Source: Streptomyces sp. I6 (lineage in GTDB: Bacteria; Actinomycetota; Actinomycetes; Streptomycetales; Streptomycetaceae). Taken from it: 64,000 nt of DNA. The position numbers and the translations under genes are program-made. This document shows positions 38,931-63,187 of the stretch, piece after piece (the stretch's first letter is position 1; every line of letters begins with the position of its first letter). The notes below the pieces were generated by a model. The model saw only the letters and a list, made by a program, of their open reading frames with translations, had not been told where the DNA came from and ran no database searches. The stretch spans positions 558,001 to 622,000 of the forward strand of contig RHDP01000001.1 of assembly GCA_003725745.1 (NCBI GenBank). The letters are read 5' to 3'.

Positions 38931-39473
38931 ATGGGCGAATCAATCATCGACAATTCTCCACTGTTCGAACTGCGCGCGGACATTGTGGTTTCCGCAACCC
39001 CTAAAGAGGTCTACGCGGTCGTCAGCGATTTGCCGCGCAGCGCTGAATGGAGCCCCGAATGCCGGGGCGGTGAATGGATCGGCGGAGAGCCCGCGGCAGT
39101 GGGCACGATCTTCCGCGGCGAGAACCTCCGCAGCGAGGAGGTCGTGGCCTGGGCCCCGCTCGTGCGCGGGACCTGGTACACCGAGGCCCGCGTCACGGCG
39201 GCCGAGCCGGGGGTGACCTTCCGCTGGATGATGCTCTCGCACGCCCAGGACGACCAGGAATCCGTCTGGGGCTTCGACATCGAGCCGCTCGCCGAAGGCA
39301 GCCGGCTGGTCCACCATTTCCGCATGGGAAAGGCGACCGCCGGAATCCACAAGATCGTCTCCGAACTCGACGAGGATGCTCGTAAGCGATTCGTCGCGGA
39401 CTGGACCGCCAAGCTGGAGCGGGACCTCGACGACACCCTCAAGCGAATCAAGGACGTCATCGAATCCGCATGA
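38931..39473 (+). CDS. SRPBCC-family (START/Bet v1-like) protein
   Basis: 180-residue helix-grip protein. The N-terminal beta strand and helix are LRADIVVSATPKEVYAVVSD with LPRSAEWSPECRGGEWIGG, typical of polyketide cyclase/dehydrase-like SRPBCC proteins. The core continues TFRWMMLSHAQDDQESVWGF and ends in a long C-terminal helix (ADWTAKLERDLDDTLKRIKD). The codon use at the start is less G+C-biased than its neighbours. It precedes the ligase by 38 bases on the same strand and is likely the first gene of the N-N-bond operon. Function unknown: ligand binding or cyclase/aromatase-like role are possible. Confidence 0.75.
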   Translation: MGESIIDNSPLFELRADIVVSATPKEVYAVVSDLPRSAEWSPECRGGEWIGGEPAAVGTIFRGENLRSEEVVAWAPLVRGTWYTEARVTAAEPGVTFRWMMLSHAQDDQESVWGFDIEPLAEGSRLVHHFRMGKATAGIHKIVSELDEDARKRFVADWTAKLERDLDDTLKRIKDVIESA

Positions 39474-39511
39474 CGGGTTCCTTCCCGCGTACGTGAAACG
39501 GAGTGGGCGAG

Positions 39512-41089
39512 ATGTTTCTGCAACGAATAGGGAACAAGGGCATCCGGCTCGGGACGCTCTTCGACCGGGCGGCCGCCCGGCACCCCGGCAACATGGTGGT
39601 CCTGGACCACGACCTGGACGTCGCGCCCGAACTGGGCCGGCGCCTGGCCCTGCCCGAGGTGGCCGAGCTGGTCGCCGAACTGGCATCGCGGCTGTGGGCC
39701 GCCGGGGTCCGCACCGGTGAGCGGATCGTCGTCCACAAGACCGACGGCTTCGACATTTCGCTGATGGCCTGCGCCGCCGCGCGGATCGGTGCCGTGCCGG
39801 TGCTGCTCTCCCCCAAGCTGGACGGCGAGACCGTCGTCGAGCTGGTGCGCCGGGCTCAGGAACCCTACCTGGTCACCGACGAGGCCAAGCTCACCGACAG
39901 CCTTCCGGCCGAGGTCTTCGAGGCGGCCAAGAAGGTCCTGCTCACCTCCGGCACCTTCGAGGGCGCCACCCGCTGGCCTCGTACGCCGGCACCGCACGGG
40001 TCGATCCGATCACCATGCCGCCGGACCACCCGACGCTGATCACGCACACCTCGGGCACCACGGGCACCCCGAAGCTGGCCGTCCACACGGGCCACACCTT
40101 CCAGGCCCGCTACCGCCCCAGGCCACCGTGGTCTCGGCGGTCCGCAGCCGCGAACCGATCGCCGTCCACGTATCGTTCGTGCACTCACGGATGTTCACCG
40201 CCATGCCTATCGCGATCCTCCAGGGCCACCCGCTGATCATCCTGAAGGACGACGATCCGGAGTCGGTCGCCAACCTCTTCTCGCAGGTGCCGCCGGGACT
40301 CATCGAGGCCCACCCCAACACCTTCCTGCGCTGGGAGGTGCTGGCGAAGGACCCGCGCGGCCCGCTGAGCAACGTCAAGTACTTCAGCTCCACCTTCGAC
40401 GCCATCCACCCGCGCACCGTCCACACGCTGCTGGGTGCCTCGCGGCGGAAGCTGCCCCTGTTCGCCCAGGCGTACGGGCAGAGCGAGGTCGGCCCGATCG
40501 CCGCCCGCACGTACTCCCGCAAGCGCGGCACCGAGGCGGACGGCCGCTGCGTCGGCTCGCCGTTCCACGGGATGACCAACGTCCGAGTGGTCAGCCGCGA
40601 CGGCCGCCCGCCGACGAAGTCCTCGCCGGGCTTCATCGAGGTCCGCAGCGACGGCCGGATCGTCACCTACCTCGGCGAGCACCATCGGTGGGAGAAGCAG
40701 CTCAACGACGGCTGGTGGCGGATGGGCGACGTCGGCTACCGCACCAAGTGGGGCTGTCTGCACCTGCTGGACCGCGAGGTCGACGAGATCCCCGGCGTGG
40801 GGTCCACCCTGGAGATCGAGGACAAGCTCTTCGCCCGGATCGAGGACCTGATCGAGGTCATCATCATCCCCGGCCCCGACGGCCGCCCCGTCCCCGTGGT
40901 CTCCACCCGCGACGACAAGCCGCTGGACGAGCGGGTCTGGAAGGACGCCGTGGTCGGTCTGCCCCGATGGCGGACCCGGTCCGGTGGAAGCTGGAGGACC
41001 TCCCACAGACCGCCACCACCAAGATCAAGCGACTCGAACTGGCCCGGCTGCTGGCGGCCGGCTCCAACGGGAACGGCGAACTGCCATGA
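39512..41089 (+). CDS. CreM-like AMP-dependent ligase, putative ATP-dependent diazotase (three apparent frameshifts)
   Basis: ANL-superfamily adenylating enzyme: P-loop-like motif HTSGTTGTPKLAVH, AMP site QAYGQSEVGPIA and the late motif GDVGYRTKWGCLHLLDREVDEI; C-terminal A10 lysine region TATTKIKRLELARLLA. It is fused to no carrier domain. ATG 39512 has GGAG 8 bases upstream. Frames step by one base at about 39972, 40118 and 40967; adding one C to the local C-run restores each join. Its stop overlaps the ATG of the monooxygenase (ATGA). In cremeomycin biosynthesis the homologous CreM uses ATP and nitrite to diazotise an arylamine. The neighbourhood here strongly supports that role, but a plain aryl-CoA/AMP ligase remains possible. 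Confidence 0.8.
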
Positions 41090-43072
41090 CCAAACCCCCC
41101 TTGAGATCTGTGTCGTGGGCGCCGGTCCCCGCGGCCTGTCGGTGATCGAGCGGCTCTGCGCCAACGAGCGGGCCACCCCCGGCCACGCCGGGGTCACCAT
41201 CCATGTGGTGGACCCCTCCCCGCCGGGGGCCGGCACGGTCTGGCGGCCCGAACAGTCCCGCCACCTGCTGATGAACACGGTGGCCTCGCAGATCACTGTC
41301 TTCACCGACGACAGCGCCCGGCTGGAGGGCCCCATCGAGGCGGGGCCCAGCCTGTACGAGTGGGCCCGCGACCTGGTCGCGCGGGTCGAGGCGGGCCACG
41401 GCGAGGCCGAGAAGGAGGTGCTGTCCGAGGCCCGCCTCCTCGGCCCGGACTCCTACCCCACCCGCTCCTTCTACGGCAGCTACCTGCGCAGCTGCTTCCA
41501 GGAGGTGGTGGACCGCGCCCCGGCGCACGTGGCGGTCAAAGTGCACCGCTCCCGCGCGGTGGCCATCGCCGATGTGCACGGGGTCACCGAAGGAACCCAG
41601 GGCGTCCGGCTGGAGGACGGCACCCGGCTCAACGAACTGGACGCCGTCATCCTGGCCCAGGGCCACCTACCGACCCGGCTGACCCCGCGTGAGGCGCGGA
41701 CGGCGGGCCTCGCCCGTATCCACCACCTCACCTACGTGGCCCCGGCCAACCCGGCCGACCTGGACCTCAGCGACATCAAGCCCGGCCAGCCGGTGCTGCT
41801 GCGCGGCCTGGGGCTCAACTTCTTCGACCACATGGCCCTGTTCAGCGCGGGTCGGGGTGGCACGTTCGAGCACGGCGAGGACGGCAGGCTCGTCTACCGC
41901 GCCTCGGGCCGCGAGCCGAAGATGTACGCCTTCTCCCGGCGCGGGGTGCCCTACCACTCCCGCGGCGAGAACCAGAAGGGCGCCTACGGCCGCTACTTCC
42001 CCGGCTGCTCACCGTGGAGTACATCGAGAAGCTGCGCGCCCGCTCCGCCGACGGCCAGCGGATCCGGTTCAAGACCGATCTGTGGCCGCTGATCTCCCGG
42101 GAGGTGGAGAGCGTCTACTACGAGACCCTGCTCACTGCCCGGGACCGCGCGGCGGACGGCGCGGAGCTGGCCGAGCGCTTCCTGAAGCGGCCGGCCGACG
42201 ACGACGGGGTGCAGCTGCTCACGGAGTTCGGCATCCAGCCGGAGGACCACTGGTCCTGGGATCGGCTCTCCAGGCCGTACGAGAGCCGGGAGTTCACCAG
42301 CCGGGAGAACTTCCGGTCCTGGCTGCTGGAGTACCTGGCCGCCGACGTGAAAGCCGCCCGCAGCGGCAACGTCAGCGGTCCGGTCAAGGCCGCGCTGGAC
42401 GTGCTGCGCGACCTGCGCAACGAGATCCGGCTGGCGGTCGACCACGGCGGACTGGCCGGTGACTCCTACCGGGACGAGCTGGAGGGCTGGTACACCCCGC
42501 TCAACGCCTTCCTCTCCATCGGCCCGCCGGCCTCCCGCATCGAGGAGATGATCGCCCTCATCGAGTGCGGTCTGCTGGAGGTGACCGGGCCGGGCACGAG
42601 GATCGCCGTGGACACCGCCGCACCGCAGTTCGTCGCGGTCTCCACCGATGTCCCCGGGCCGCCGATCCACTCCACGGTCCTGATCGAGGCCCGGCTGCCC
42701 GAGCCCGATCTGCGGCGCACCGACGACCCGCTGATGCGCCATCTGCTGGACACCGGGCAGGCCCAGCCGTACTCCATGGCCGCCTCGCAGGGCAGCAGCT
42801 ACCAGACCGGCGGGCTCGCCGTCACCGAGAGGCCCTACCGGCTGCTGGACGGCAACGGGCAGGCGCACCCCCGGCGCTTCGCCTACGGCGTGCCGACCGA
42901 GTCGGTGCACTGGGTCACGGCCGCGGGCATCCGGCCGGGCGTCGACTCGGTGACGCTCGGCGACTCGGACGCCATCGCCCGGGCGGCCCTGGCGGTGGCC
43001 CCCGTCGCCCACCGCCCCTGGCCGGCGCAGTCCCGGACCCCGGAAGAGGGCCTCGTCGGGGTGATCGTGTGA
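41086..43072 (+). CDS. CreE/FzmM-like flavin monooxygenase, putative nitrosuccinate-forming (two apparent frameshifts)
   Basis: Large flavoprotein of the FAD-NAD(P)-binding (PF13454-like) family. The dinucleotide motif is ICVVGAGPRGLSVIERL at residue about 8; RHLLMNTVASQITVFTDDSA follows, then LNELDAVILAQGHLPTRLTP and PGQPVLLRGLGLNFFDHMAL; the C-terminal half (from LLTVEYIEKLRARSADG) is helical. CreE and FzmM of this family oxidise L-aspartate through N-hydroxyaspartate to nitrosuccinate. One C is missing in the C-run at 41094-41100 and another near 42007. The start ATG 41086 overlaps the ligase stop. It pairs directly with the downstream lyase, as in known nitrous-acid clusters. Confidence 0.85.
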
Positions 43073-44545
43073 GCGCCGGGGCCACCGGCATCGGGGCCCC
43101 GGCGCCGCCGCCCCCGGTGCCGGAGCGCCGGGGGCGGCGGCCCGTCCGGCCGGCGCGGGATCGACTCCGGGCTGCTCTCCCCGGTGCGCGCGGGCACGCC
43201 CGGTGAGGCGGCGACCGCCGACGATGCCTGGCTGCAGGCCATGCTGGACGCCGAAGCGGCGCTGACCCGGGCCCAGGCCGGGATCGGCACCGTACCGAAG
43301 GAGGCCGCCGAGGCCGTCACCCGTATCGCGCGGGCGGAGGCGCTGGACCTGCGCGCGCTCGCGGTCGCCTCACGGGAGACGGCCAACCCGGTGGTCTCCC
43401 TGGTCGCCGCGCTGACCCGGGCCGTGGCGGAGGTGTCGCCGGAGGCCGCCGAGTACGTCCACCGCGGCTCGACCAGCCAGGACATCCTGGACACCGGGGC
43501 GATGCTCGTCGCCGCCCGGACCCTGGGGCTGATCGCGGCCGACCTGGCCGCGGCGGCCGAGTCGCTGGCGGGGCTGGCCCGGAAACACCGGGACACCGTG
43601 CTGCCCGGCCGCACCCTCGCCCTCCAGGCCGTACCGACCACCTTCGGGCTGAAGGCGGCCGGATGGCGGCGGCTGCTGCTCGACGCCCACCGGCGGATCA
43701 CCGCCGTGCTCGACGGCGGGCTGCCCGTCTCGCTCGGCGGGGCGGCCGGAACGCTCGCCGGCTACCTGGAGTACGCACGGGTCGACGGCGACGCACGCGC
43801 CGTGGACGTCGACGGCTATCTGGAACTGCTGCTCGACGGGTTCGCCGCCGAGACCGGGCTCGCCCGGCCGCCGCTGCCCTGGCACTCCCTGCGGACCCCC
43901 GTCGCGGATCTGGGTGCCGCTCTCGCCTTCACCACCGGCGCGCTCGGCAAGATCGCCATCGATGTGCAGTCGCTCACCCGGACCGAAGTCGGCGAGGTGG
44001 CCGAGCCGTCGGTGGCGGGGCGCGGGGCCTCCTCCGCCATGCCGCACAAGCGCAACCCGGTGCTCGCCACGCTCATCCGCAGCGCGTCACTCCAAGTGCC
44101 GCTGCTGGCATCCGGTTTGGCGCAGTGCCTGGTCTCCGAGGACGAGCGGTCGGCCGGCGTCTGGCACGCCGAGTGGTCCCCGCTGCGGGAGTGCCTACGG
44201 CTGACCGCCGGGGCGGCGCACACGGCCGTCGAACTGTGCGCGGGCCTGGAGGTGCGCCCGGACCGGATGCGGGAGAACCTGGGGCTCACGGGCGACCAGG
44301 TGGTGACCGAGCGGATCGCCGCCCATCTGGCCCCGCACCTGGGCCGTGCACAGGCCAAGCGGCTGCTGGGCGAGGCGGCGGACGAGGTACGGATGAGCCG
44401 CCGCTCACTGGCCCAGGTGCTGGCATCCCTCCCGCAGGCGGCGGAGCTGCTGCCGGCGGGTGCGGAACTGGAGCGGCTGTGCGACCCGGCCGGCTACACG
44501 GGGGCCGCGGGCGCCCTGGTCGACCGGGAGGTGGGGCGGGAGTAG
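43069..44545 (+). CDS. CreD-like nitrosuccinate lyase (aspartase/fumarase superfamily), N-terminal frame disturbed
   Basis: Member of the adenylosuccinate lyase / carboxymuconate cycloisomerase superfamily. The signature GRGASSAMPHKRNPVLATL is near residue 290, and the earlier motif YVHRGSTSQDILDT carries active-site residues. In the nitrous-acid pathway CreD splits nitrosuccinate into fumarate and nitrous acid. The conserved N-terminal sequence IDSGLLSPVRAGTP lies upstream of the first start in the main frame. The likely start is GTG 43069, overlapping the monooxygenase stop, with two missing bases (or one insertion) before about 43155. It follows the CreE-like gene directly, so the job is inferred from context; a cycloisomerase-type lyase is the alternative. 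Confidence 0.85.
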
Positions 44546-44679
44546 CGCTGGCCGTATCCGCTGCCGCGGGCACCTCTGCCGTCGCTGTCGCCGGCGGAAG
44601 CCCGATGGCGCGTCTGGGCGACGCCCGCTCGTGAGGCCTGTCTTCATGCCCGTCGAGGCCGGGGCGGGCTGAACGTGGC

Positions 44680-44742
44680 GGACCGAACACGGGGGGTGCG
44701 GCGGCGGCCGAGGACCGTCGCCGCACGCCCCGTGTTCGGTCC
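44680..44742. terminator. Bidirectional terminator between convergent operons
   Basis: Left arm 44680-44703 (GGACCGAACACGGGGGGTGCGGCG is 24 bases; core GAACACGGGG) and right arm 44719-44742 pair with one mismatch; 15-base loop. It separates the plus-strand nitrous-acid operon from the minus-strand 3-hydroxyanthranilate operon. Confidence 0.88.
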
Positions 44743-44749
44743 ACGCCGC

Positions 44750-45475
44750 TCAGCCCGCGCCGTGCAGCCGACGCAGCAGCTCCTCCGCCCAGCCGTCCTC
44801 GTACGCCTCGAAGAGCGGGAAGCCGCCGTTCTCCGGGGAGTCCGTCCAGCGGCAGGTCACCCCCGGGTTGTGCAGCGCGTACCCGCCCGGCGCGAACAGG
44901 TGCGGGCTGCCCTGCACGTGCGGTCCCCGGGCGATGTCCCACTGGCCGTACACCTCCAACCGGCCCTCGCCCGCCCGCAGCGCCTTCGCCAGCGCGTCCG
45001 CGTCCAGGTGCTCGCACCCCTCGGCCAGCTCCAGGATCACTGCGTGCACGCTCACCGAGCGGCTCTCGGTGTAGAAGGCGCGGCGCAGCGCGATGTCCAG
45101 CTCGTCCGAGGCCCGCAGTCCGCCCACCGCCGGGGACTTGGCGGCCTGGACGGCCTCCAGGGCGGGCAGCATGCTGGAGGGGTAGGCCCAGTCCGGCGCC
45201 GACCAGCGCCGCCACCCCACCTCGGGGCGGCGGGCGGCGATGGCCGACAGCTCCACGTCCACGATGAACTTCGGCGTGGGCTCGCGGTTGAACAGCTCCA
45301 GGGGGAAGGCCCGGTGGTCGATGAGGACCGGCAGTTCCAGCCGGGCGGAGGTGGCCCGCAGGGTGTGCAGGGCCAGCGCCGCCCAGGGGCAGCCGATGTC
45401 CGACCAGACCGTGACGACCGGCCAGCCCCTCTCCCTGTGATCGATGTTGACCAGTACCGGATCGTCGCTCGTCAT
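44750..45475 (-). CDS. DsbA-fold (FrnE / 2-hydroxychromene isomerase-like) protein with a single-Cys motif
   Basis: 241-residue thioredoxin-fold protein of the DsbA/FrnE group. The position of the usual CxxC reads VWSDIGCPWAALALHTLRA, so the second cysteine is replaced by Ala, which argues against a dithiol oxidase. A FrnE-like region follows (DHRAFPLELFNREPTPK). The C-terminal VQGSPHLFAPGGYALHNPGV includes the cis-Pro segment (GSPHLF). Its ATG 45475 overlaps the stop of the ADIC synthase (ATGA), so it is translationally coupled and almost certainly acts in the same pathway, possibly as an isomerase or glutathione/mycothiol-type transferase. Intact. Confidence 0.78.
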   Translation of the reverse strand: MTSDDPVLVNIDHRERGWPVVTVWSDIGCPWAALALHTLRATSARLELPVLIDHRAFPLELFNREPTPKFIVDVELSAIAARRPEVGWRRWSAPDWAYPSSMLPALEAVQAAKSPAVGGLRASDELDIALRRAFYTESRSVSVHAVILELAEGCEHLDADALAKALRAGEGRLEVYGQWDIARGPHVQGSPHLFAPGGYALHNPGVTCRWTDSPENGGFPLFEAYEDGWAEELLRRLHGAG

Positions 45476-47355
45476 CGGACCGCTCCCTCGGTGCGCCGCA
45501 GCAGTTCGGTCAGCAGGTTACGGGTGATGTGCACCCCGTCACGGGTGAGGACCGACTCCGCGTGGAACTGGGTGGAGGCGAACCAGGGGCCGCGCAGCCC
45601 GTGCACCTCGCCGGTCTCGGGCGACCGGCTCACCTCGACGGGCCCAATCCCCGGGCAGTCGGTCTTGGCCTCGTCGCAGACGGCGGCGAAGGTGTTGTAG
45701 AAGCCCACCCGCTCGCGTCGGCCGAAGAGATCGATCTCGCGCTGCACCCCCTGGTTGGGCACCTCGCGGCGGACCAGCGGGAACCCCAGCCGTCTGCTCA
45801 GCACCTGGTGGCTGAGGCAGACGGCGAGGAACGGGGTGCGGGTCTCCAGTAACCGGACGACCGCCGCGTCGAGATGGGCGATCTTCGGGTGGGCGAGGTC
45901 GCGCGGATCGCCGGGGCCCGGGCCCATGACGATCAGGTCGTGGCCCTCCGGGTCGTACGGCTCGTCGAACCGGCTCACCGTCACCGACAGTCCGATGGCG
46001 CCGAGTTGCTGGGCGATCATCGAGGTGAAGGTGTCCTCGGCGTCGACCACCAGCACCCGCCGCCCGGCGAGATAGGGATCCGGGGCGTGCCGGTCCCCGG
46101 CGTTGGCGAGCCAGAAGTCCGCAAGCGAGGAGTTGCGTTCCGCCAGCGCGGCCCTGACCTCGGGGTTGGCGGAGAGCCGGCCCTGACCGCCGGATTCCAG
46201 GGCCGCCAGCAGCCCGGCCACCTTGGCCCGGGTCTCGGCCGCCTCGGACATCGGGTCGGAGTGGCGTACGAGGGTGGCGCCGACGCCGATCCGCAGCCGC
46301 CCGCCCGCGTCGATGTCGGCGGTGCGGATGAGGATCGAGGAGTCCAGGGCGTGGCCCCCCTCCTCGTCGCGGCCGAGCAGGGCCACCACCCCGCTGTAGT
46401 AGCCGCGCCCCTCGGGCTCGTACTGGTTGATCACCCGGCAGGCGCTCTCCAGCGGGCTGCCGGTGACGGTCGGGGCGAACATCGTCTCGCGCAGGATGTC
46501 GCGCGGGTCGCGGTCGCTGTGCCCCTCGATGAAGTACTCGGTGTGGGCGAGCCGTGCCATCTCCTTGAGGAACGGTCCGATGACCCGCCCGCCCTCCGGG
46601 CAGATCCGGGACATCATCTTCAGCTCCTCGTCGACGACCATGTACAGTTCGTCGATCTCCTTGGGGTCCGCGAGGAACTCCATCATGGCGGGCAGGCTCG
46701 GGCCGCTCGGCGCGTACCGGTAGGTGCCGCTGATGGGGTTCATCACGGCGAGGCCGCGGGTGAGGCTGACATGCCGCTCGGGGGTGGCGCCGACGAAGGT
46801 GCGCTCGCCGGTGTGGACGACGAACGTCCAGTAGGCGCCCGACTCCCGCTCCAGCAGCCGCCGGAAGAAGGTGAGCGCGGCCCCGGGGGTGTAGCCCGTG
46901 ATGTCGGCCGAGTAGGAGCGCTTGATGACGAAGTTGGCGCCCTTGCCGGTGCCGATGTCGTCGGTGACGACCCGGCGCACGGTCTCGGCGTACGTCTCGT
47001 CGTCGGTCTCGAAGCCGCCGCCGGTCAGCGTGATCGCGGTGTCCGCGATGCGGCGCAGCGCCTCCGCGACCGTGCAGACCTCCTGGTCGGTGACGGTCAT
47101 CGCGAGCAGCGGGGAGCCGTCCTCGGCGCCGACGAAGCCGCGCTCGGAGATCTGCCGGTAGGGGACGAGGACCAGGGCGTCGTGCCGGGCCTCGCCGTGG
47201 GGGCCCGGGGTGAGCGGGATGTCGGACAGGGTGTCGTACGCGCGCACGTCCCCGACCAGCACGTCGAGCGTGCCCTCGCCGGTGGACTCCGGGCGGTACA
47301 GCAGGGCGAAGGGCGGCGGGTCGGCCCCGAGTATCCGCCCGAGCAGATCCGTCAT
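45472..47355 (-). CDS. PhzE-type 2-amino-2-deoxyisochorismate (ADIC) synthase
   Basis: 627-residue fusion of a chorismate-binding TrpE-like domain (about 1-430) and a TrpG glutamine amidotransferase domain (about 440-627). Chorismate domain: NPISGTYRYAPSG, DEELKMMSRICPEGGRVIGP, APTVTGSPLESACRVI. Amidotransferase: MGPGPGDPRDL, nucleophile FLAVCLSHQVLSRRLG, and the His/Glu of FHAESVLTRDG. Size and domain order match PhzE, which makes ADIC from chorismate and glutamine without releasing pyruvate, rather than anthranilate synthase. It overlaps the PhzD-type gene (TGATG at 47353-47357), which fixes ADIC as the product used. Intact. Confidence 0.93.
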   Translation of the reverse strand: MTDLLGRILGADPPPFALLYRPESTGEGTLDVLVGDVRAYDTLSDIPLTPGPHGEARHDALVLVPYRQISERGFVGAEDGSPLLAMTVTDQEVCTVAEALRRIADTAITLTGGGFETDDETYAETVRRVVTDDIGTGKGANFVIKRSYSADITGYTPGAALTFFRRLLERESGAYWTFVVHTGERTFVGATPERHVSLTRGLAVMNPISGTYRYAPSGPSLPAMMEFLADPKEIDELYMVVDEELKMMSRICPEGGRVIGPFLKEMARLAHTEYFIEGHSDRDPRDILRETMFAPTVTGSPLESACRVINQYEPEGRGYYSGVVALLGRDEEGGHALDSSILIRTADIDAGGRLRIGVGATLVRHSDPMSEAAETRAKVAGLLAALESGGQGRLSANPEVRAALAERNSSLADFWLANAGDRHAPDPYLAGRRVLVVDAEDTFTSMIAQQLGAIGLSVTVSRFDEPYDPEGHDLIVMGPGPGDPRDLAHPKIAHLDAAVVRLLETRTPFLAVCLSHQVLSRRLGFPLVRREVPNQGVQREIDLFGRRERVGFYNTFAAVCDEAKTDCPGIGPVEVSRSPETGEVHGLRGPWFASTQFHAESVLTRDGVHITRNLLTELLRRTEGAVR

Positions 47356-47978
47356 CAGCCGACCGCCTCTTTGGTCGTGAGCACGACGGCGCAGCGGTGC
47401 GCGGCGTACTCCATGGTCATCCGGTGCCGCTCCGGGGAGAAGTCCCCGACTGCGTCCGCGATCAGGAAGGTCTCGATGTCCTGGGTGAAGGACTCGACGG
47501 CGGTGGCCAGGATGCCGACGTGCCCGTACACACCGCAGATCACGAGCTGGTCCCGGCCGGCCGCGCGCATCCGCTCCAGCAGGTCGGTGCGGAAGAAGGC
47601 GCTGTAGCGCCATTTGGTCAGCATCCAGGAGCCGGGCGCGGGCGTCAGCTCGTCGACGACCTCACGGTCGGCCGCCTCGGCGCGCATGCCCGGCCCCCAG
47701 AAGTCCTTGAGCAGCCCGCGCTCCTCGGGGGTCATGCTGCCGGGCTGGGCGGTGTACGCCACCGGCATCCCGGCCTCCAGCGCGTGGGCGCGCAGCCGGG
47801 CGGCGTTGGCGAGCAGCGGGTCGCGCAGCTCGGGGCCGAACGGCTGGAGGAAGTAGCGCTGCATGTCGTGGACGAGCAGGACGACCCGGTCGGGGTCGAT
47901 GCTCCAACGGGCGGTGTTGTCGGGAAGGTCGCCGCGCTCGGGGAGCGGGTACGGCGGGATGGGGGCGATGCCGGCCAT
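47355..47978 (-). CDS. PhzD-type isochorismatase
   Basis: 207-residue isochorismatase-like hydrolase converting ADIC to trans-2,3-dihydro-3-hydroxyanthranilate plus pyruvate. The sequence is PhzD-like throughout: [20 protein letters not shown], catalytic-Asp segment [53 protein letters not shown] with the key Lys, and [14 protein letters not shown]. It starts at ATG 47978 after a spacer from the dehydrogenase. Coupled to the ADIC synthase. Very secure. Without phzF, phzA/B or phzG nearby, the dihydro compound must go to the dehydrogenase instead of phenazine. Confidence 0.95.
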
Positions 47979-48244
47979 GGGTGGTCCTGTTTCCTTTCGC
48001 GGGTGGTTCCGATCCGGTCGTCGGACACCGCCCCGGGGCTTTCGTTCGGATCGGGCCGGACCAGGGAGCCTGGTCCGGTGCGGGCGGCTGCGGGGCGGAG
48101 GATCGAGGCAACGCGACGGGGTCCCCTGCTCAAGCGAGACCGGGAGCTTGGGGAGGACGGTGATGGACGACGGCGTCGCGGATGTGCGTGCCGGGGCACG
48201 AGCCCGGCCTGATCCGAACGGGAGGCCCCGGGGGTGCCCTGAGG

Positions 48245-54499: not shown

Positions 54500-55384
54500 A
54501 TGTACACCATCGCACCGACGTTCGATATCGACCACTCGCCCGAGTGGGGCTCGGAGAGGCTCGATCTGGACGCCTATCTGCGGCGGATCGGCTACGAAGG
54601 GGCCCGGGACAACTCGCTGAAGACCCTTCAGCAGGTACACCGGGCCCATATGAGCACCATCTCCTTCGAGAACGTCGACATCGCGGTCGGCCGGACGGTC
54701 TCGCTGGACATCGCCGAACTGGAGCGCAAACTGGTCCGCTCCGGACGCGGCGGTTACTGCTACGAGACCAACCTGCTCTTCGCCGCCGCGCTGGACCGCC
54801 TCGGCTTCCCGGTGATGCGGATGCTCTCCCGCATCCGGGAGGGAGACACCAGGCGCCGGTTCCGCTCGCACACCTCCCTGCTGGTCAGGACGGCGGACGA
54901 ACCGGACACGGTGTGGCTGGCCGACCCCGGCTACGGCTACGCCGGGCTCATCGAGCCGATGCCGCTGCGCGACGGAGCCCGCGCGACCGTGGGGGCCTGG
55001 AGCTGGGAGCTGGGCGTGGACGACGGCCACTGGGTGCTGCGATCCCAGGACGGCGAGGGGCGCTGGAGCGACCTCTACGTCTTCCGGCCCGAGCGCCAGT
55101 ACGAGGTCGACTACCGGGCGGCGCACTACGTCAGCTCCACCAGGCCGGGCTCCCCGTTCGTCAACCGGCTGGTGGCACAGCGCGGTTCGGAGACCGTGCG
55201 GTACCGGCTGCGCAACGACGTCCTGGTCACCGACCACCCCGACGGGCGCACCGAGCGCGCCGTGCTCACCCCGGACGAGGTGGTGGCCGCCCTGCGGGAG
55301 AAGTTCGGTCTCACCCTGACCGACGAGGACGTCTCGCTGCTCTCGGGGTTCCTGCACCGCGGGGAGAGCACCGCCGCCTGCTGA
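54500..55384 (+). CDS. Arylamine N-acetyltransferase-family protein
   Basis: 294-residue NAT fold. The catalytic triad is visible: Cys in SGRGGYCYETNLLFAAAL (RGGxCxExN), His in FRSHTSLLV and Asp in WLADPGYGYAGLI. ATG 54500 with GGAAGGAG 8-14 bases upstream. The family includes N-acetyltransferases of aromatic amines and amide synthases such as RifF that close macrolactams. In this cluster an acetyl or acyl transfer to the amino (or hydroxy) group of 3-hydroxyanthranilate, as masking or self-protection, is plausible. Follows the amidotransferase by 51 bases. Intact. Confidence 0.87.
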   Translation: MYTIAPTFDIDHSPEWGSERLDLDAYLRRIGYEGARDNSLKTLQQVHRAHMSTISFENVDIAVGRTVSLDIAELERKLVRSGRGGYCYETNLLFAAALDRLGFPVMRMLSRIREGDTRRRFRSHTSLLVRTADEPDTVWLADPGYGYAGLIEPMPLRDGARATVGAWSWELGVDDGHWVLRSQDGEGRWSDLYVFRPERQYEVDYRAAHYVSSTRPGSPFVNRLVAQRGSETVRYRLRNDVLVTDHPDGRTERAVLTPDEVVAALREKFGLTLTDEDVSLLSGFLHRGESTAAC

Positions 55385-55432: not shown

Positions 55433-55459
55433 GCCGTACCCGCCGACGTACCGGACGGG

Positions 55460-56683
55460 CTAGAGGAGCGAGACGACCGCCGGCCCGAAGGCCGCGCCGA
55501 GCAGGTAGCAGAGGTTGAACAGACCGATGGCGGCGGGCCGCTCCTCGTCGGGCACCGCCTTGGTGGAGTGCACCGCGAAGACCCCCTGGCCGGAGGCGGC
55601 CGCGATCGAGGCGAGGGCCTGCGCGAGCAGCAGCAGGATCGCGACGGTGCTCACCGAGGCCAGCACCACCCCGACGGCGCTGAGGGCGACCAGGGTGAAG
55701 ATGACCGGCTGCCGGCCCACCTTCGCCGAGAGCGCGACCACCAGCCAGCTGAGCGCGCCACCGAGCAGCAGCGGCCACACCATGGCCCCGCCGATCGTGC
55801 CGCTCGACCACGAGGTGTGGTCCGAGAGGGAGTTGGGCACCGCGAACATCAGCCCGAAGTTGACCGCCGCGAGGAGGAAGGCCAGCACCGAGGAGATCAG
55901 GAAGACGGGGCTGCGGACCACCGCCGCCGGGACGAACCCCTGCGGCTTGACCCGCAGGTGCCGCACCAGGACGGCGATCGTCAGCACCGAGAGCACCCCG
56001 GCGACCGCCGGGTAGTGCGGGACGAAGACCAGGGCCGTGACCACGGCGGTGAGCAGCACCGCGCCCAGCCCGTCGAAGGCGGCGGTGGAGGTCGGCCGGG
56101 TTGAGACCCGTCCGATGACGACGAGCAGACCGATCAGGCTGATCGCGGGCAGGGCGAGCGTCGCCTGCCAGTTGATCGCGTCGTTGACCAGCGAACCGAC
56201 CAGGGGCGCGGTGGAGCCGACCACCGCCAGCGAGGCGGTGACGAAGCCCATGGAGCGGGCGGAGTTCGTCAGGCTCATCGCGATGGAGGTGAGACCGGCG
56301 GTGCCGAGCGCCTGGAGCGCGCAGCCGATGATGACGGCCGGGAGCGCCGGGACGGCGAGGACCAGGAGGGCCCCCAGCAGGACCAGCGCCCCGCAGCCGG
56401 CGAGCGCGGCGCGCGCACCACGGTGCCGCAGCAGCCCGGTCATCAGGGGGGTGCCCACCGCGATGCCCCAGCCGAAGGCGGTCACGCCCCAGGTGACGGT
56501 TCCGGTGGTGGTGGACAAGTCGCGGGCGATGTCGTCCAGGACCAGCGCCGGCCCGGCGATGCCGAACGAGAGCGGTCCGGCCATCAGCCCCAGCCAGTAG
56601 GTGGGGATGCGGGGGGTGTCGGGTGCCGGGTGGTCCGCGCCCTCGGGGCGCGCGGTGCCCGGACCCGCGAGAGATTCACTCAC
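55460..56683 (-). CDS. MFS transporter, putative product exporter
   Basis: 407 residues with about twelve hydrophobic segments (YWLGLMAGPLSFGIAGPALV at the start, WPLLLGGALSWLVVALSAKV in the middle, LLLLAQALASIAAASGQGVF later). MFS drug-exporter-like. It lies at the heart of the cluster between the NAT and OYE genes and is transcribed with the OYE from the LuxR side. Likely exports the product and gives self-resistance; this is inference from position. The N-terminal 25 residues are hydrophilic. Intact. Confidence 0.85.
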   Translation of the reverse strand: MSESLAGPGTARPEGADHPAPDTPRIPTYWLGLMAGPLSFGIAGPALVLDDIARDLSTTTGTVTWGVTAFGWGIAVGTPLMTGLLRHRGARAALAGCGALVLLGALLVLAVPALPAVIIGCALQALGTAGLTSIAMSLTNSARSMGFVTASLAVVGSTAPLVGSLVNDAINWQATLALPAISLIGLLVVIGRVSTRPTSTAAFDGLGAVLLTAVVTALVFVPHYPAVAGVLSVLTIAVLVRHLRVKPQGFVPAAVVRSPVFLISSVLAFLLAAVNFGLMFAVPNSLSDHTSWSSGTIGGAMVWPLLLGGALSWLVVALSAKVGRQPVIFTLVALSAVGVVLASVSTVAILLLLAQALASIAAASGQGVFAVHSTKAVPDEERPAAIGLFNLCYLLGAAFGPAVVSLL

Positions 56684-56901
56684 GGTTCCTCCAGGGGTGA
56701 GGTGTGGGGCGTCGGTTCCGCCTGCGCGGGACCCGGCACCGGAACCGCCCGGCGGGCCGGGCGTCGTACGGTCGAGCGGTCACGTGGCCGGGCTCTCGCC
56801 CGGCCACGGGGTCGTTCGGTATGGGGTCGTTCGGTTCGGGGGTGTTCGGTTCCGTGTCGTACGGCCGGGGTCGTATCGACCGGCGTCGTATCGGCCGTCC
56901 C

Positions 56902-57975
56902 TCAGACGTCGAGCATCGGGTAGTCCGTGTAGCCGCGGTGGTCGCCGCCGTAGAAGGTGGCGGCGTCCGGCGAGTTGAACGGGCCGCCGACCCGGATGCG
57001 GCGCTGGAGGTCGGGGTTGGCGAGCCAGAGCGAGCCGAGGCTGACCGCGTCGGCGAGGTCGTCCTGGAGGACCTCCAGCGCGATCTCCGGGCTCACGTAG
57101 GCCTCGGTGCCGGTCTTGTGCGGGTTGAGGATCAGCGTGCCCGGCCACTCGGCCCGGACCAGCTCGGTCACCGCGCGGTGGCCGAACTCCATGATGTGGA
57201 CGTAGGCGAGGTTGTACGGGGCCAGCGTGCGGATCAACGTGCGGTACAGCTCGGCCGGGTCGCTCTCGCTGATGCCCTCGCTGGTGGAGCCGGGCGAGAT
57301 GCGGATGCCCACGCGTTCGGGGCCGATGGCGTCGCTGACGGCCCGCGCGACCTCGTCGGCGAAACGGACCCGGTTCTCCACGGAACCGCCGTAGACGTCG
57401 GTGCGCTGGTTGGAGCCGTCGGCCAGGAACTGGTGGATCAGGTAGCCGTTGGCGCCGTGCAGCTCCACCCCGTCGAACCCGGCGTCCACCGCGTGCTTGG
57501 CGGCGGAGACGAAGTCCTCCACGGTCTGCGCGATGTCCTCCAGGGTCATTTCGCGCGGCACGGGGTGGTCGACCATGCCGTCGGGGGTGTACATCTGGCC
57601 GCCGGTGGCGATGGGCGAGGGTGCGACCGGTAGGGCACCGTCCGGGTAGAGGCTGGAGTGGCCGACCCGGCCCGAGTGCATGAGCTGGACGAAGATCCGG
57701 CCGCCGGCGGCGTGCACCGCGTCGGTCACCCGGCGCCAGTCCTCGGCCTGCTCGGCGGAGTGCAGCCCCGGGGTGTCGATGTAGCCCTGGCCGATCACGC
57801 TCGGCTGGGTGCCCTCGGTGATGATCAACCCGGCCCCGGCGCGCTGGGCGTAGTAGTCGGCGGTCAGGGCGTTCACGGAACGGTCAACGGAACGGCTGCG
57901 GGTCATCGGAGCCATCACCAGGCGGTTCGGCAGGGTCATCTTGCCCACGCGCAGGGGGGCGAACAGCTCTTCCAT
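56902..57975 (-). CDS. Old yellow enzyme-family flavin reductase
   Basis: 357 residues from ATG 57975, preceded by GGAGGA at 4-5 bases. FMN TIM barrel: LRVGKMTLPNRLVMAPMTRS, IITEGTQPSVIGQGYIDTPG, GVELHGANGYLIHQFLADGS with the H-N/H pair, and GIRISPGSTSEG. OYEs reduce activated alkenes and can reduce nitro, azo and related groups with NAD(P)H. In a nitrous-acid cluster a role in reducing a conjugated ring, nitro or diazo intermediate is possible; detoxification is the alternative. 219 bases separate it from the exporter. Intact. Confidence 0.87.
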   Translation of the reverse strand: MEELFAPLRVGKMTLPNRLVMAPMTRSRSVDRSVNALTADYYAQRAGAGLIITEGTQPSVIGQGYIDTPGLHSAEQAEDWRRVTDAVHAAGGRIFVQLMHSGRVGHSSLYPDGALPVAPSPIATGGQMYTPDGMVDHPVPREMTLEDIAQTVEDFVSAAKHAVDAGFDGVELHGANGYLIHQFLADGSNQRTDVYGGSVENRVRFADEVARAVSDAIGPERVGIRISPGSTSEGISESDPAELYRTLIRTLAPYNLAYVHIMEFGHRAVTELVRAEWPGTLILNPHKTGTEAYVSPEIALEVLQDDLADAVSLGSLWLANPDLQRRIRVGGPFNSPDAATFYGGDHRGYTDYPMLDV

Positions 57976-58152
57976 GCTCTCCTCCATCGGGTTGTGATCA
58001 TCGGGGGATATCCTGGTCACAACGGTAGGAGCGGCCTCCGAGCACGGAATCCGTAGTCCCTACTGATCCCGGTACGTATTCACGGGTAAGTAACATGGGA
58101 CCGTATACCGATGGCATGGGGCGGGTCTGGTAGCGGGTGGAGGGGGACGTCG

Positions 58153-60846
58153 ATGCTGTACGGGCGAACCATCGAACAGGAGCGGCTGACACAACTGGTC
58201 GCCGCGGCACGTGCCGGGTGCAGCGGTGCGCTCCTGGTACGCGGCGAGGCGGGGATCGGCAAGACGGCACTGCTCGACTGGCTCGCCGCGACCGCGGCCC
58301 GGCCGGACCCCGAGCACGGGGACGGCGGACGAGAGCTGCGTACCTTACGGGTCACCGGCATCGAGCCGGAAGCGGATCTGGCCTTCGGGGGCCTCGTCCA
58401 GTTGCTGTGGCCCGTGCAGGGGCGCCTGGACGCCCTCCCCGAGCCGCAGGCGGCGGCCCTGCGGGCGGTCCTGGGCAACGGGGCCGAGCAGCGCGGCCCC
58501 GACCGCTTCCTGACCGGTCTGGCGGTCCTCACCGTCCTGGCGGATCTCGCCGAGGACGGCCCCGTACTCTGTCTGGTCGACGACGCCCAGTGGCTTGACC
58601 AGGCCACCGCGGAGGCCCTGCTCTTCGCCGCCCGTCGGCTGGCCGCCGAGGGTGTGGCGATGGTGCTGGCCAGCCGGGACGACGGTTTCTCCGCTCCGGG
58701 CATCCCCGAGCTGCGGCTGGCCCGGCTGGGCTTCGAGGACTCCTCGCGGCTGCTGGCCGACCGGGGCCGGGCCCCCGCCCTGCGCTCCCAGATCATCACC
58801 GAATCCGGGGGCAACCCGCTCGCCCTCATCGAGTTCGACTCCGCGCGGCGTGACCAGCCGCACCAGCACGCCCCGCTGCCCGTCGCGGACCGCGTGTTCT
58901 CGGCCTTTCGGTCACAGATCGGCAAACTGCCCGAGCGCACCCGGCTGATGATGCTCATCGCAGCCGCCGAGGCGCGCGGCGACCTGCCCCTGCTGCTGCG
59001 CGCCTCGGAGCTGCTGGGCGTGGACCTCGGCGATCTGGAGGAGGCCGAGCGGTCCGGGCTGATGTACGTCATGGACGGCACGGTCACCTTCCGGCACCCG
59101 CTGATCGCCTCCGCGACGTACCAGGGTTCCGTGCTCGCCCGCCGGATCGCGGTGCACCGGGCCCTGGCCGAAGCCGCCGTCGACCCGGACTGCCGGGCCC
59201 GCCATCTGCTGGCGATCACCACCGCACCCGACCAGGACGTGGCGCTGGAGCTGGCCGAAGCTGCCGGGCGTGCCCGGGGCCGTACGGCGTACGCGGCGGC
59301 CTCCGGCCTCTTCCGGCACGCCGCCCGCATCGCCACGGACCAGGAGCAGCGGGCCGCCTGGCTGACCGAGTCGGCCGCGCTCGCGCTCGCCGGCGGCCAT
59401 GCCGCACAGGCGGACCGGCTGGCCGAGGAGGCCGACCCGCTCCACGACGACCCGGCCGTCGGGGCCACGATCGCCCTGGTGCGCGCGGCCGTCGTCTTCG
59501 AGCTGGGCGACCAGGCCGAGGCCGCCCACGGGCTGCTGGCCCGTGTGGGGGACACCGCCACCCCCAGACCTCCGGCATGCTCCGTACGGCCGCTGCCTAC
59601 GGCTGGCTGGCCGGTGACGGGGACACCGTGAGCGCCGCCGGGGCCCGGCTCGCGGCGGGCGGCTGCACGGACCCGCTGGTGGAGGGGCTGGGGCGGCTCT
59701 GCGAGGACGACGCCGAGCACGGACTGCCGCTGCTCGCCCGGTTCCTGGAGCAGCGGCTCGACGCTCCCGACACTCGGGACGTGGACGAGCAGGCCGTTCG
59801 GATGCTGGCGCTCAATTGCGGCACGATCCTCGGTGACGACGAGGCGGCGCTGGACCTGGCCTCGACGGAGGTGCGGTGGTGCCGCTCCCAGGGGTTCATC
59901 GGTGAACTCCCGTACGCCCTCGACGTCCTGGCCCAGAACCAGGTCCTGGCGGGCCGCCACCGGGACGCCGAGGCGACGGTGACGGAGGCGGAGGAGATCG
60001 CCCGGGACACCGGGATGCGCCAGCGGCTGGCCCGGCTGGCGGCGGTGCGCGCGCGGATCGCGGCCATCGAAGGGGACGCCCAGCGGGTACGGGAACTGGC
60101 CGAGGACACCCCCGGGGCGCTGTGCACCGGGGTGGACTGTGCGGGCGTCCTGCTCGACCTGGGACTCGGCGACTTCGACTCGGCCCTGAACCGGCTGACC
60201 CCGCCGCCGCCCGGCCCCGACCGGTACATCTGGCTCTCCCTGTCCACCGCCGCCGACCAGGTGGAGGCGGCGGTGCGGCTCGGGCAGCCGGAGCGCGCCG
60301 AGGAGGCGCTGCGCCACTTCGAGGACTGGGCCCGCGCCGGGGCCCGGACCTCCGCCACCACCACGCCCTGGGCGCAGGCGGTGGTCCTGCGGTGCAAGGC
60401 GCTCCTCACCGACCAGCCGGAGCACTACGCCCAGGCGCTGCACCTGCACGAGAAGGGGGTCGCCCCTTCGAGCGCGCCCGTACCGAGCTGCTCTACGGGA
60501 GTGGCTGCGCCGGGCCCGCCGGCGCAACGAAGCCCGGGAGATGCTGTGTTCGGCGCTGACCACCTTCGAGCGACTCCAGGCGGAGCCCTGGATGCGCCGG
60601 GCCCGGGCCGAGCTCCAGGCGTCCGGGGACCACCTGGTGACGGCACGGATGCTGGCGGACAACCTGATCGACCGGCTGACCCCGCAGGAACTGCAGGTCG
60701 TGCGGCTCGCCAAGGACGGCAGCAGCAGCCGGGAGATCGCCGCGCAGCTGTTCCTGAGCCCGCGCACCGTGGAGCACCACCTCTACAAGGCGTACCCGAA
60801 GCTGGGTGTGGGCTCGCGCCAGGAGCTCGTGCTCCTCGACCTCTGA
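58153..60846 (+). CDS. LAL (large ATP-binding LuxR-type) pathway regulator with a TTA codon (apparent frameshifts)
   Basis: About 898 residues when repaired. Walker A LLVRGEAGIGKTALLDWLAA at residue about 30, Walker B VLCLVDDAQWLD, TPR-like middle, and a C-terminal LuxR HTH: RLTPQELQVVRLAKDGSSSR with AQLFLSPRTVEHHLYKAYPK. Frames step by one base near 59570, 60470 and 60500-60510. ATG 58153 (MLYGRTIEQERLT) is preferred over 58111. Codon 65 is TTA (58345-58347), the rare leucine codon read by bldA tRNA. LAL regulators activate clusters; this one is divergent from the OYE/MFS operon with 177 bases between, so that shared promoter is a likely target. Confidence 0.88.
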
Positions 60847-61240
60847 GCCTCCTCGCGGTCGCGCTCACAGCCGGGCTCACGGTCGCGGTCGGTCCCAGGG
60901 CCGCCGGCATGGTCGTGGGGCGGCCGCGAGCCCGACGCACCCGCGGTGGGAACGGACGGAAGATGTTCACCTTCCCGTCCGTTTCCGTCGCTGAACGCTG
61001 CTCCGGCCCCTGACGCACGCTCCGCACGGGTGTCGGGCCACCTTGTGCACCGCCGCCCGACACAGCGAAAAGTGCGCTCCCTACCGCCCTAGCCGTTTCT
61101 ACGGTGCCCGGACCACCTCCCCTGAAGATCAAGGCATATTACGCTTCCAAGCGGTGCCGGTGGCGGAGTGGCGACGCGACCGCGTGGGCTCCACCGGCCC
61201 GCTGACCAGAGATTCGGCCGGGCCGCACGACGGGGATCAC
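60847..61240. other. Intergenic region between the two regulators
   Basis: Contains the LAL terminator at 60949-60986 and the presumed promoter of the PucR-type regulator. No gene recognised; the frame open from 61043 up to the GTG at 61241 has no domain. Confidence 0.5.
60949..60986 (+). terminator. Terminator hairpin after LAL regulator
   Basis: Left arm GGAACGGACGGAAG (60949-60962) pairs with CTTCCCGTCCGTTTCC (60971-60986) except for two single-base bulges. The bulges are where a base would have been lost from AAA and GGG runs, matching the base-loss pattern elsewhere. Confidence 0.7.
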
Positions 61241-63187
61241 GTGTTAAGAAACGAAGCCGGGGCGAACGTCGACGCTGTGGCCATATTGGAGCTGCTGGCC
61301 TCCGACGCACCGCCCGACCGATTCGAATCGCTCCTGACCCGGGCCCGTTCGTCGGGAATGTCCGGTCCGCAGCTGGACCGCCTGGAGAACGCCCGCAAAC
61401 TCGGCCTGCACATCTACTCCCAGCTCGACCGCCGCCAGCAGCGCGAGGCCAGTCTGTTGGCCCTGGTGGACACCGCCCGCGAGCTGTCGGCTCCGAACGA
61501 CCTGAAGACCCTGCTCAAGGTGGTCACCCGCCGGGCCCGGATGCTGCTCGGCGCGGACATCTCCTACATCACCCTGCTCACTTCGGAGAAGGGAACGGCC
61601 CGGGTCGAGGCGAGCGACGGGCACGTCTCGTCGTTCCATGTGGGGATGCGGATCCCGCACGGCGCCGGCAGCAGCGACGTCCTGACCACCTCAGCGCCCT
61701 TCTGGAGCGCGGACTATCTCGACGACGCCCGGTTCCCCCACCACGAGCGGCTGGACGAGATGGTGCGGGCCGAGGAGCTGCGCGGCATCATGGCGGTCCC
61801 GCTCAGCCACGGCAGCGGCCCGTACGGCGTGCTGCACGTCGCGGATCGCGAGCCGCGCCACTTCTCGGCGGACGAGGTGTCCCTGATGAGTTCGCTGGGC
61901 GATCTCGCGGGGCCGTCATCGAGAAGGCCCGGCTGATGGACCGGACCGCAGCCGAGGTGGAGATGCTCCAGAAGCGCACCGAGGAGGCCGAGACCAGCCA
62001 CCGCCAGTGGCAGGAGGTCGGTGACCTCCATGAGTTCCTGATGTCCCAGGTCCTCTCCGGGTGCGACCTGCAGAACCTGGCCGAGGCGGCGGCCGACGGC
62101 CTCGGGGGCACCCTGACCGTCTGCGGGGGCGACGGCACCGTGCTGGCCTCCACCGCCGGGGCGCAGCCCGACGACGAGCTGATGATCCCCCGGGCGATGA
62201 TGGACGCCCACGCCGCGGGCAAGGCGGTCCGGGTCAAGAACAGCCTGTGGGCGGCCCCGGTCCTGATGGGCGAGGAGAACCTGGGCGCGGTGCTGCTGCG
62301 CACCGAGCGGCCCCTGCGGGACTCGGGCGTCCGGCTGCTGGGCCTGGTGGCGCAGGCCACCGCCGTCCAGCTGCTCCGGCAGAACTGCTGCATCGTGATG
62401 GAGAGCCAGGCCCGCGACGGTTTCCTGGACGACCTGGTCAACCGCACCCGTCCCACCCGGGAGTTGGACCGGCGGGCCCGCAAGCTGGGTGTCGCGCTGG
62501 AGGAGTCGTACGTCGTCGTGGTGGCCAGCCCGGTCGGCGACGCCCGGCGCAAGGCGATGATCTGGGCCTCCTCCTACGCTCACCGCAACGACGGGCTCAA
62601 GTCGGAGCAGGGGGCCGGGTGATCTTACTGCTCCCCGGCACCGACGCGGCGGAGGTCGCCCGCGAGGTGCACAACGACCTGTCCCCGCTGCTCCGGCACC
62701 TGGTCACGGTCAGCGCGGCCGGCCCTGTGTCCGGCGCGGGCCCATCCACCGCAGCTATCTGGAGGCACTGCGCTGCCTGGAGGTGATGGGTGCGCTGGGG
62801 CTCTCCGGCCGGTCGGCCGCCGCCTCCGAGCTGGGCTTCCTCGGGCTGCTGGTCTCCGACGGCCACGACGTGGACGGCTTCATCGAGTCGGTGATCGGCC
62901 CGGTGGCCCGCTACGACGACCAGCGGCTCACCCAGCTCACCGACACGCTGGAGGCCTTCTTCCACGCCTCCGGCTCGCCCACCCACGCGGCCAAGGCCCT
63001 TCATGTGCACCCCAACACGGTCGCGCGCCGGCTGGAACGGGTCAGTGAGCTGCTGGGCGAGGGCTGGCACCGGCCCGACCGTGCCCTGGAGGTTCAACTT
63101 GCCCTGAAACTGCGGCGGATGAGGTCGGCTCTGATGGGGCTGGACCCACTCGCCGGCGGCCACCGCACCGGCGCCGACGGGGAGTGA
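61241..63187 (+). CDS. GAF-PucR-type (CdaR-like) pathway regulator, TTA as second codon (apparent frameshifts)
   Basis: About 649 residues when repaired. A GAF domain at about 80-230 (LLALVDTARELSAPNDLKTL, ADISYITLLTSEKGTARVEA, GIMAVPLSHGSGPYGVLHVA), a central region with coiled coil (EKARLMDRTAAEVEMLQKRT), and a C-terminal PucR/HTH_30 domain (AKALHVHPNTVARRLERVSE). The frame steps by one base near 61915, 62620 and 62745. GTG 61241 starts ML(R)N with codon 2 TTA (61244-61246), a bldA dependence. No ATG in frame gives an alternative before residue 40. Pathway regulator; ligand unknown. Confidence 0.85.

Follow-up and report, generated by a model that had tools for sequence, protein, structure and literature searches.

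Cremeomycin is made with the aspartate-nitrosuccinate (ANS) route (CreE-CreD-CreM) and an aryl precursor of the 3-amino-4-hydroxybenzoic acid (3,4-AHBA) type. L-Alanosine clusters occur with or without ANS genes, the aspartate route being reportedly replaceable by nitrate/nitrite reductases (Wang and Ryan 2023 as cited in PMC11705231), and 72 of 134 ava-type clusters carry no CreE or CreD, the origin of their nitrite being an open question in print (PMC10777205). The penzonemycin (pzm) cluster of Streptomyces sp. SCSIO 40020 (GenBank ON345781), published in 2022, pairs CreE and CreD with a supply of 3-hydroxyanthranilate (3-HAA) (PMC9323291). Here we analyse a 64,000-nucleotide stretch of Streptomyces sp. 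I6 (contig RHDP01000001.1, positions 558,001 to 622,000; hereafter the window, with positions counted from its first letter) that carries a cluster whose product is probably a small aromatic compound into which nitrogen from nitrite is introduced. It shares CreE- and CreD-type enzymes with cremeomycin by sequence, with a ligase adjacent, and, unlike cremeomycin, has an aryl precursor predicted to be of the 3-HAA type. A first-pass annotation of the window recognized no named product for this combination with an asparagine-synthetase-like enzyme; put that way the view is not supported, the pairing of the two pathways having a precedent in pzm. Among related clusters, the aspartate route and a nitrate-reducing module look like interchangeable nitrite supplies.

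The nitrite-forming genes of the window lie together on the plus strand and encode an AMP-binding ligase and putative ATP-dependent diazotase (39,503–41,088, end approximate), a CreE-like L-aspartate N-hydroxylase (41,085–43,072, start inferred) and a CreD-like nitrosuccinate lyase (43,184–44,545). The ligase is split in the window and the hydroxylase changes frame near 42,006; both were read through an orthologous cluster in G005 (G numbers denote genomes and L numbers loci of our set), a one-contig genome of the same genus that a lyase search of 150 related genomes returned with a 91% match. The G005 ligase has 545 residues, with pieces 70–96% identical to the window copy (Pfam AMP-binding, 119 bits). 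The monooxygenase belongs to family NAD_binding_9 (CreE-type), and up to E 1e-10 its G005 copy has a single match in the PDB, 8cp2 (688 bits), listed merely as an FAD-binding protein, which we take to be a Streptomyces aspartate N-hydroxylase (compare PMC10404684); a grouping with unrelated FAD-NAD(P)-binding proteins was thus not seen. Nor does the lyase group away from CreD: it scores above the curated cut-off of the NCBIfam nitrosuccinate lyase model (NtrsucLyaStm, 734 versus 650 bits), barely passes the cycloisomerase model TIGR02426 too (356.1 versus 355.75), and in the PDB matches CreD (5xny) with 546 bits against 261 for carboxymuconate cycloisomerases. Motif counts were 30/33 and 33/33 for the monooxygenase and 43–44/44 for ligase motifs A3, A5 and A7; those for ligase A10 (1/44) and the lyase signature (18/29, window copy unmatched) stem from faulty patterns and match segments ending early, and no inference is drawn from them.

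The gene order and overlaps that had first suggested a CreM-CreE-CreD arrangement hold in G005, where, worked out by hand, the ligase stop lies on the monooxygenase ATG (ATGA) and the monooxygenase stop on a GTG in the lyase frame (GTGTGA); in the window the GTGTGA is present and, in the sequence as given, one base out of frame with the called lyase open reading frame (ORF). By the chemistry of their families, the CreE-like enzyme would convert aspartate to nitrosuccinate and the CreD-like lyase would split nitrosuccinate into nitrite and fumarate, and the pair is predicted from sequence to supply nitrite from aspartate. The window genome holds a second CreE-CreD pair (G000:C1:4.708–4.722 Mb; L034, L193, L251), about 9 kb from an AvaA6-family ligase (351 bits, under the family cut-off), and a third CreE homologue (58%) at 1.78 Mb.

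We searched 392 genomes of the genus for the ligase clade and found it in 33 at E 1e-215, at 38 places, two of which form a terminal-repeat duplicate; the split ligase of the window does not reach this threshold. Downstream of the ligase, G298, G415, G069 and S. werraensis have, in place of CreE-CreD, genes for a NarK-like transporter, a molybdopterin reductase of NasC type and a pair of FAD-NADH reductases. Across 42 ligase loci, including 5 from named genomes chosen via PhzE hits, we counted 15 with the aspartate route only, 13 with both, 5 with the nitrate module only, 3 with a monooxygenase and no lyase, and 6 with neither; a complete aspartate route, a nitrate module or both thus stand beside the ligase in 33 of the 42. 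The arrangement is constant in all 18 module loci: ligase, then CreE and CreD if present, then NarK, NasC and an FAD protein, all on one strand; 16 of these loci encode a second FAD protein. NasC motif counts were 25/28 and 28/28. A CreE-like gene stands beside the ligase with no CreD match within the fetched stretch at L195 (G444, 3.24 Mb), L223 (G318, 6.8 Mb) and L098/L189 (Actinokineospora). In the genome of S. werraensis JCM 4860, a CreD search at E 1e-60 returned no match, and no relative of CreE exceeded 39%. These counts suggest a modular nitrite supply, in which related clusters would use aspartate, nitrate (through the NarK-like, NasC-type and FAD reductase proteins) or both. The swap occurs at one fixed site beside orthologous ligases, which makes it testable in culturable strains such as S. 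werraensis JCM 4860, and among the literature matches listed we found no description of a nitrate reductase module in an aryl diazotase cluster.

A carboxylesterase, an AsnB-type enzyme and an arylamine acyltransferase are encoded close together in the window, S. werraensis, S. lateritius, G298, G415, G069 and G444. The seven clusters that combine these three with the ligase (the window and G005 counted as one) include four with nitrate only, two with both supplies and one, the window, with aspartate only; S. lateritius JCM 4389 is a strain with both.

Ligase distances correlate with those of NasC (r 0.64, n 17), CreD (0.46, n 27) and CreE (0.69, n 31), and NasC with CreD (0.88, n 12); each value was reached by 0 of 2000 permutations, which were not corrected for shared ancestry. 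Groups common to the ligase and NasC trees are G451+G298, G415+G069, G453+G444, G426+G167, G009+(G232+G226) and G380+(G452, G071, G193), not all of them starred, and in both trees the nitrate-only G009 is nested among loci with both supplies. Between the ligase and NarK of the nitrate-only G069 lies a lyase remnant, 49% identical over 255 residues with a short N-terminal piece in addition; together with the shared groups, this favours loss of CreE-CreD there. A weak remnant occurs in G009 (E 8.5e-4, 38% over 63 residues), and the corresponding gaps of G298, G451 and G415 hold none. Parsimony over 33 loci requires 6 changes for the nitrate module and 3 for the aspartate route, gain and loss not being distinguished. 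We take this pattern, for part of the clade at least, to reflect an earlier double supply of which some lineages lost one half and some the other. A bolder reading, to which we give a probability of about 0.55, is that the ligase clade descends from an ancestor with both nitrite supplies side by side that underwent reciprocal losses, and that the window is an aspartate-only survivor in an AsnB, acyltransferase and esterase group whose other members live mostly on nitrate. Enzymatic diazotisation would then have in nitrate reduction a nitrite source dedicated to it and interchangeable with the aspartate route.

One observation weighs against this reading. The NasC proteins of the nitrate-only G415 and G069 fall together with three of the alanosine-like kind (99/95), beside G451+G298; our confidence in the dual ancestor is lowered because the NasC of four nitrate-only loci thereby group with alanosine-like ones, which allows for module exchange. 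Others weigh against the wider proposal of a diazotised 3-HAA product with a modular nitrite supply. No nitrite source is visible at 6 of the 42 ligase loci and 3 have the monooxygenase only, with less than 8 kb downstream of the ligase in G390, G017, G205, G164 and G348_C78, among which are three of the six loci with neither supply (G390, G164, G348_C78). The NasC, NarK and NirB-like models all stay below their cut-offs (NasC 745 bits, cut-off 1100, with 520 for the formate dehydrogenase model; NarK 278, cut-off 312), and the solved structures closest to the NasC-type protein are formate dehydrogenases (407 bits, versus 279 for periplasmic nitrate reductase, both in the PDB); the NarK-like neighbour is what favours nitrate as its substrate. 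Elsewhere in the genome, a 58% CreE homologue is present in the nitrate-only G298 and G009 and a homologue of CreD in G069. An AsnB-type gene was noted at just 8 of the 42 ligase loci (many of them covered by no more than 20 kb), and diazotisation hence does not require amidation. The ligase itself reaches 75.6 bits against the 975-bit cut-off of the AvaA6 diazotase model (NF058622), and genes of the window are frameshifted, with their intactness inferred from G005.

The alanosine-like loci of our set carry homologous NarK and NasC genes with FAD reductases, and nitrate and nitrite reductases may supply the nitrogen of alanosine, with work on nitric oxide-producing reductases cited in the same source (PMC11705231). 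On this evidence, the module beside the ligases could instead serve nitric oxide formation, as for alanosine, or nitrogen assimilation, and move between cluster types; the NasC grouping just described and, by eye, close NasC relatives at loci seemingly unrelated to biosynthesis (G047, G276) point the same way. We think this improbable: the FAD proteins tested (2, plus 3 of another kind) have no siroheme nitrite reductase domain, and the module keeps one fixed place after the ligase or CreD in 18 of 18 loci. Alanosine is a non-aromatic amino-acid product, no ligase of the window clade was noticed beside the alanosine-like loci, and, unlike alanosine clusters, the ligase-clade loci have both routes side by side in 13 of 42 cases. 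One alanosine-like locus lies in the window genome (G000:C1:6.898–6.911 Mb; L182, L183), identified by eye and by homology to loci of G189, G165 and G023; it has SbnA- and SbnB-like genes (by eye), an adenylation domain, a split NarK, NasC and FAD reductases.

Two further candidates were set aside. A dedicated biosynthetic NasC clade was rejected, as the tree mixes ligase-linked, alanosine-like and other loci and the 17 ligase-linked rows need 5 changes. The nitrate module was also considered as the nitrite source of ava-type clusters. Nine AvaA6 places exceed the family cut-off, and seven of them (L254–L259, L273) were examined in 17–20 kb stretches: L254, L257 and L258 have no CreE or CreD match, L255 has a piece of CreE only, and NarK/NasC occurs at 0 of 7. 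The published ava gap is therefore not accounted for by the swap.

The ligase would diazotise an aryl amine, consuming ATP and nitrite. We infer this role from its operon context, and its likeness to CreM is one of gene position rather than sequence comparison. Its identity to 12 AvaA6-family proteins, 3 of them above the family cut-off, is 23–27%, and its best-scoring models are general acyl-CoA ligases (PRK06187, 119 bits, itself under cut-off). The latter match would suit an ordinary aryl-acid ligase, with nitrite acting non-enzymatically or nitrosating carbon and not nitrogen, as would the note in a review that the diazo group of cremeomycin can arise spontaneously in some media (PMC11705231). 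Set against that possibility, which we regard as unlikely, CreE or NarK follows the ligase on the same strand in 36 of 42 loci, and the ligase covaries with them. A diazotising ligase is part of the reading that we prefer.

The aryl amine itself would come from a minus-strand set of genes. They encode a PhzE-type 2-amino-2-deoxyisochorismate synthase (45,472–47,358, start inferred, ORF open to 47,613; Pfam Chorismate_bind and GATase, named relatives at most 70% in the best segment), a PhzD-type isochorismatase (47,355–47,978; Pfam Isochorismatase, 139 bits), an EntA/DhbA-type short-chain dehydrogenase/reductase (SDR; 48,243–49,013, end approximate, frame change near 48,582; scanned half 156 bits, cut-off 300) and a class-II DAHP synthase (49,092–50,270, start approximate, ORF open to 50,767, frame change near 49,244; Pfam DAHP_synth_2). 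All four had been named in the first-pass annotation and were recovered by Pfam and NCBIfam scans, and its observation that PhzF, PhzG and PhzA/B are missing agrees with the absence of these families among the ORFs scanned between 36 and 64 kb. At family level this is a phenazine-type 3-HAA supply: PhzE, PhzD and an EntA-type SDR without the later phenazine enzymes. The extra DAHP synthase would feed chorismate, PhzE would form 2-amino-2-deoxyisochorismate, PhzD would release pyruvate and the SDR would aromatise the dihydro acid to 3-HAA; this is established family chemistry, here predicted for the enzymes of the cluster. We consider it probable that the product of the cluster is an aryl compound derived from 3-HAA and diazotised with nitrite of enzymatic origin.

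Three plus-strand genes follow: a type-B carboxylesterase (50,847–52,526; Pfam COesterase, 269 bits), an AsnB-type glutamine amidotransferase and hydroxyamidotransferase-like amide ligase (52,592–54,448; assigned by Pfam) and an arylamine N-acetyltransferase-family protein (54,500–55,384; Pfam Acetyltransf_2, 178 bits; Cys, His and Asp motifs matched in the G005 copy). The second had been called asparagine-synthetase-like; the AsnB-type family stands, yet its nearest solved structure is the hydroxyamidotransferase 7ylz (597 bits), which we take to belong to the SaHAT/TsnB9 hydroxyamidotransferase group, and not E. coli AsnB (1ct9, 145 bits). SaHAT, a TsnB9-type hydroxyamidotransferase of the same AsnB-type family, takes free benzoic acid as substrate with ATP (PMC13418202). 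SaHAT and TsnB9 work with amidooxygenase partners according to the same source; none was noticed in the window cluster, no search by partner sequences having been made. Because the window enzyme is nearest 7ylz and SaHAT acts on a free benzoic acid, our guess is that it amidates 3-HAA or a derivative to the plain amide, and it may thus convert the ring carboxyl with glutamine nitrogen. Motif counts were 9/9 for AsnB and 5–8/8 for the acyltransferase. The esterase leader appears twin-arginine-like by eye in the window copy; no such leader was noticed in the copies of G298 and G451.

The AsnB-type gene points to aryl amides or nitrogen-rich rings, and no link to this chemistry was met in the literature examined. 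ortho-Aminobenzamides close to benzotriazinones with nitrous acid. If AsnB made 3-hydroxyanthranilamide and its amine were diazotised, closure by the amide would give 8-hydroxy-1,2,3-benzotriazin-4(3H)-one, an idea to which the nearness to a carboxylate hydroxyamidotransferase lends some support. We hold this product to be decidedly unlikely: it is purely inferential, a literature search including benzotriazin gave no match, and it leaves unexplained the esterase and the acyltransferase, whose acylation would block the amine. Paulomycin was tried and rejected as a source of the AsnB-type gene, as 'asparagine' and 'amidotransferase' have 0 occurrences in the main texts of two paulomycin papers. 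At L268 (G204) and L267 (G060), an AvaA6-like ligase lies near an AsnB-type gene 51–52% identical to that of the window, and L268 also has PhzE/PhzD and the regulator-transposase pair described below; these loci may represent a further type of 3-HAA/AsnB cluster, built on a different ligase family.

The gene inventory comes from coding-potential ORF calling with Pfam and NCBIfam scans. Homology to G005 defines the cluster more widely than the 38,931–63,187 first proposed: the cluster is real, and its limits were drawn too narrowly. The homologous block runs from 37,819 to about 64,780, just beyond the window end, with DNA identity of about 87–92% and shared gene content and order. Outside it, comparison with 60 kb of G005 gave no match at E 1e-20, which marks the cluster as a discrete block placed in two different settings. 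It takes in two upstream genes and, at its right end, a transposase-like gene. Seven window genes are each split over at least two frames (quinone reductase, ligase, monooxygenase, SDR, DAHP synthase, LuxR-type regulator and GAF-HTH_30 regulator), and tblastn comparison shows all seven reading through in G005; conversely, the old yellow enzyme (OYE) gene is intact in the window and split in G005. Because G005 reads through, because lyase, NasC and NarK genes elsewhere in the window genome are split too and because that genome is 87% complete, the frameshifts are probably assembly indels rather than decay. Gene decay as the leading account was discarded on the read-through of the seven genes and the other splits genome-wide.

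The two upstream genes, both on the plus strand, encode a Zn-type, PIG3-like quinone reductase (37,862–38,845; several frames, G005 orthologue 85–97% in pieces by tblastn; NCBIfam quinone_pig3 173 bits in the G005 copy, cut-off 297) and a 192-residue SRPBCC/polyketide-cyclase-like protein (38,895–39,473; 94% to G005; Pfam Polyketide_cyc2 in the G005 copy). On the minus strand lie a DsbA-superfamily protein with a CPWA motif (44,750–45,475; Pfam DSBA 23 bits, under cut-off), an MFS exporter (55,460–56,683; Pfam MFS_1) and an OYE-type reductase (56,902–58,020; Pfam Oxidored_FMN, 268 bits). Sequence searches gave no solved relative of the DsbA-like protein, and Foldseek with its AlphaFold2 model (mean pLDDT 82) returned FrnE and GST-kappa at TM scores of about 0.6. 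The acyltransferase, esterase, OYE, quinone reductase and SRPBCC proteins would tailor the product and the MFS protein would export it.

Two plus-strand regulators split by frameshifts follow, a large LuxR-type (LAL) protein (58,111–60,843; AAA_16, G005 orthologue 897 residues) and a GAF-GGDEF_2-HTH_30 (PucR/CdaR-like) protein (61,220–63,187; domains read on the G005 copy). Convergent with the latter is a minus-strand gene for a DDE_5 transposase-like protein (63,221–64,000, continuing to about 64,441; Pfam DDE_5). The same convergence was seen in 11 of 11 loci with both genes within 1.5 kb (the window and G005 as one case; nearest gap 43–278 bp), L033:13,663–14,889 being noted beside the window case. 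A DDE_5 gene occurs in 24 of 80 PhzE loci and in 14 of the 15 of those with the regulator. For 11 of 12 genomes, such a cluster is the site of the best DDE_5 copy; in the exception, G444, that copy lies about 30 kb from another ligase locus, with the second copy at the cluster, and some genomes have more distant copies (33–40%) elsewhere. As D46, E191 and D372 are the only acidic residues at least 95% conserved in 22 DDE_5 copies, the protein may be domesticated, perhaps in a regulatory role.

Set beside the pzm cluster by annotation, the window shares DAHP synthase, PhzE, PhzD, the EntA-type dehydrogenase, CreD, CreE, a CreM homologue, quinone reductase, an SRPBCC protein (pzm19), an MFS protein and a transposase gene (PMC9323291). 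These common genes, with the acyltransferase of the window, would fit a penzonemycin-type product, in which nitrogen is put on ring carbon 4 of an N-acyl 3-HAA, the amine is diazotised and Japp-Klingemann coupling to an active methylene gives a hydrazone. We nevertheless find such a product rather unlikely. Acetolactate synthase (pzm16), the F420 oxidoreductase (pzm4) and a second acyl-CoA ligase belong to pzm only, and neither of the first two families is among the window ORFs scanned between 36 and 64 kb; the pzm acyltransferase is annotated as another type, and the AsnB-type, arylamine N-acetyltransferase-type, OYE, esterase and DsbA-like genes of the window have no counterpart in the pzm table. 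Calcimycin, limazepine and paulomycin clusters have PhzE, PhzD, an EntA-type dehydrogenase and DAHP synthase, like the window (PMC9323291, PMC4802897, PMC4425429). Given pzm, the pairing of pathways in the window is not new; what is distinct is an AsnB-type enzyme nearest to a hydroxyamidotransferase, in the company of an arylamine acyltransferase and an esterase.

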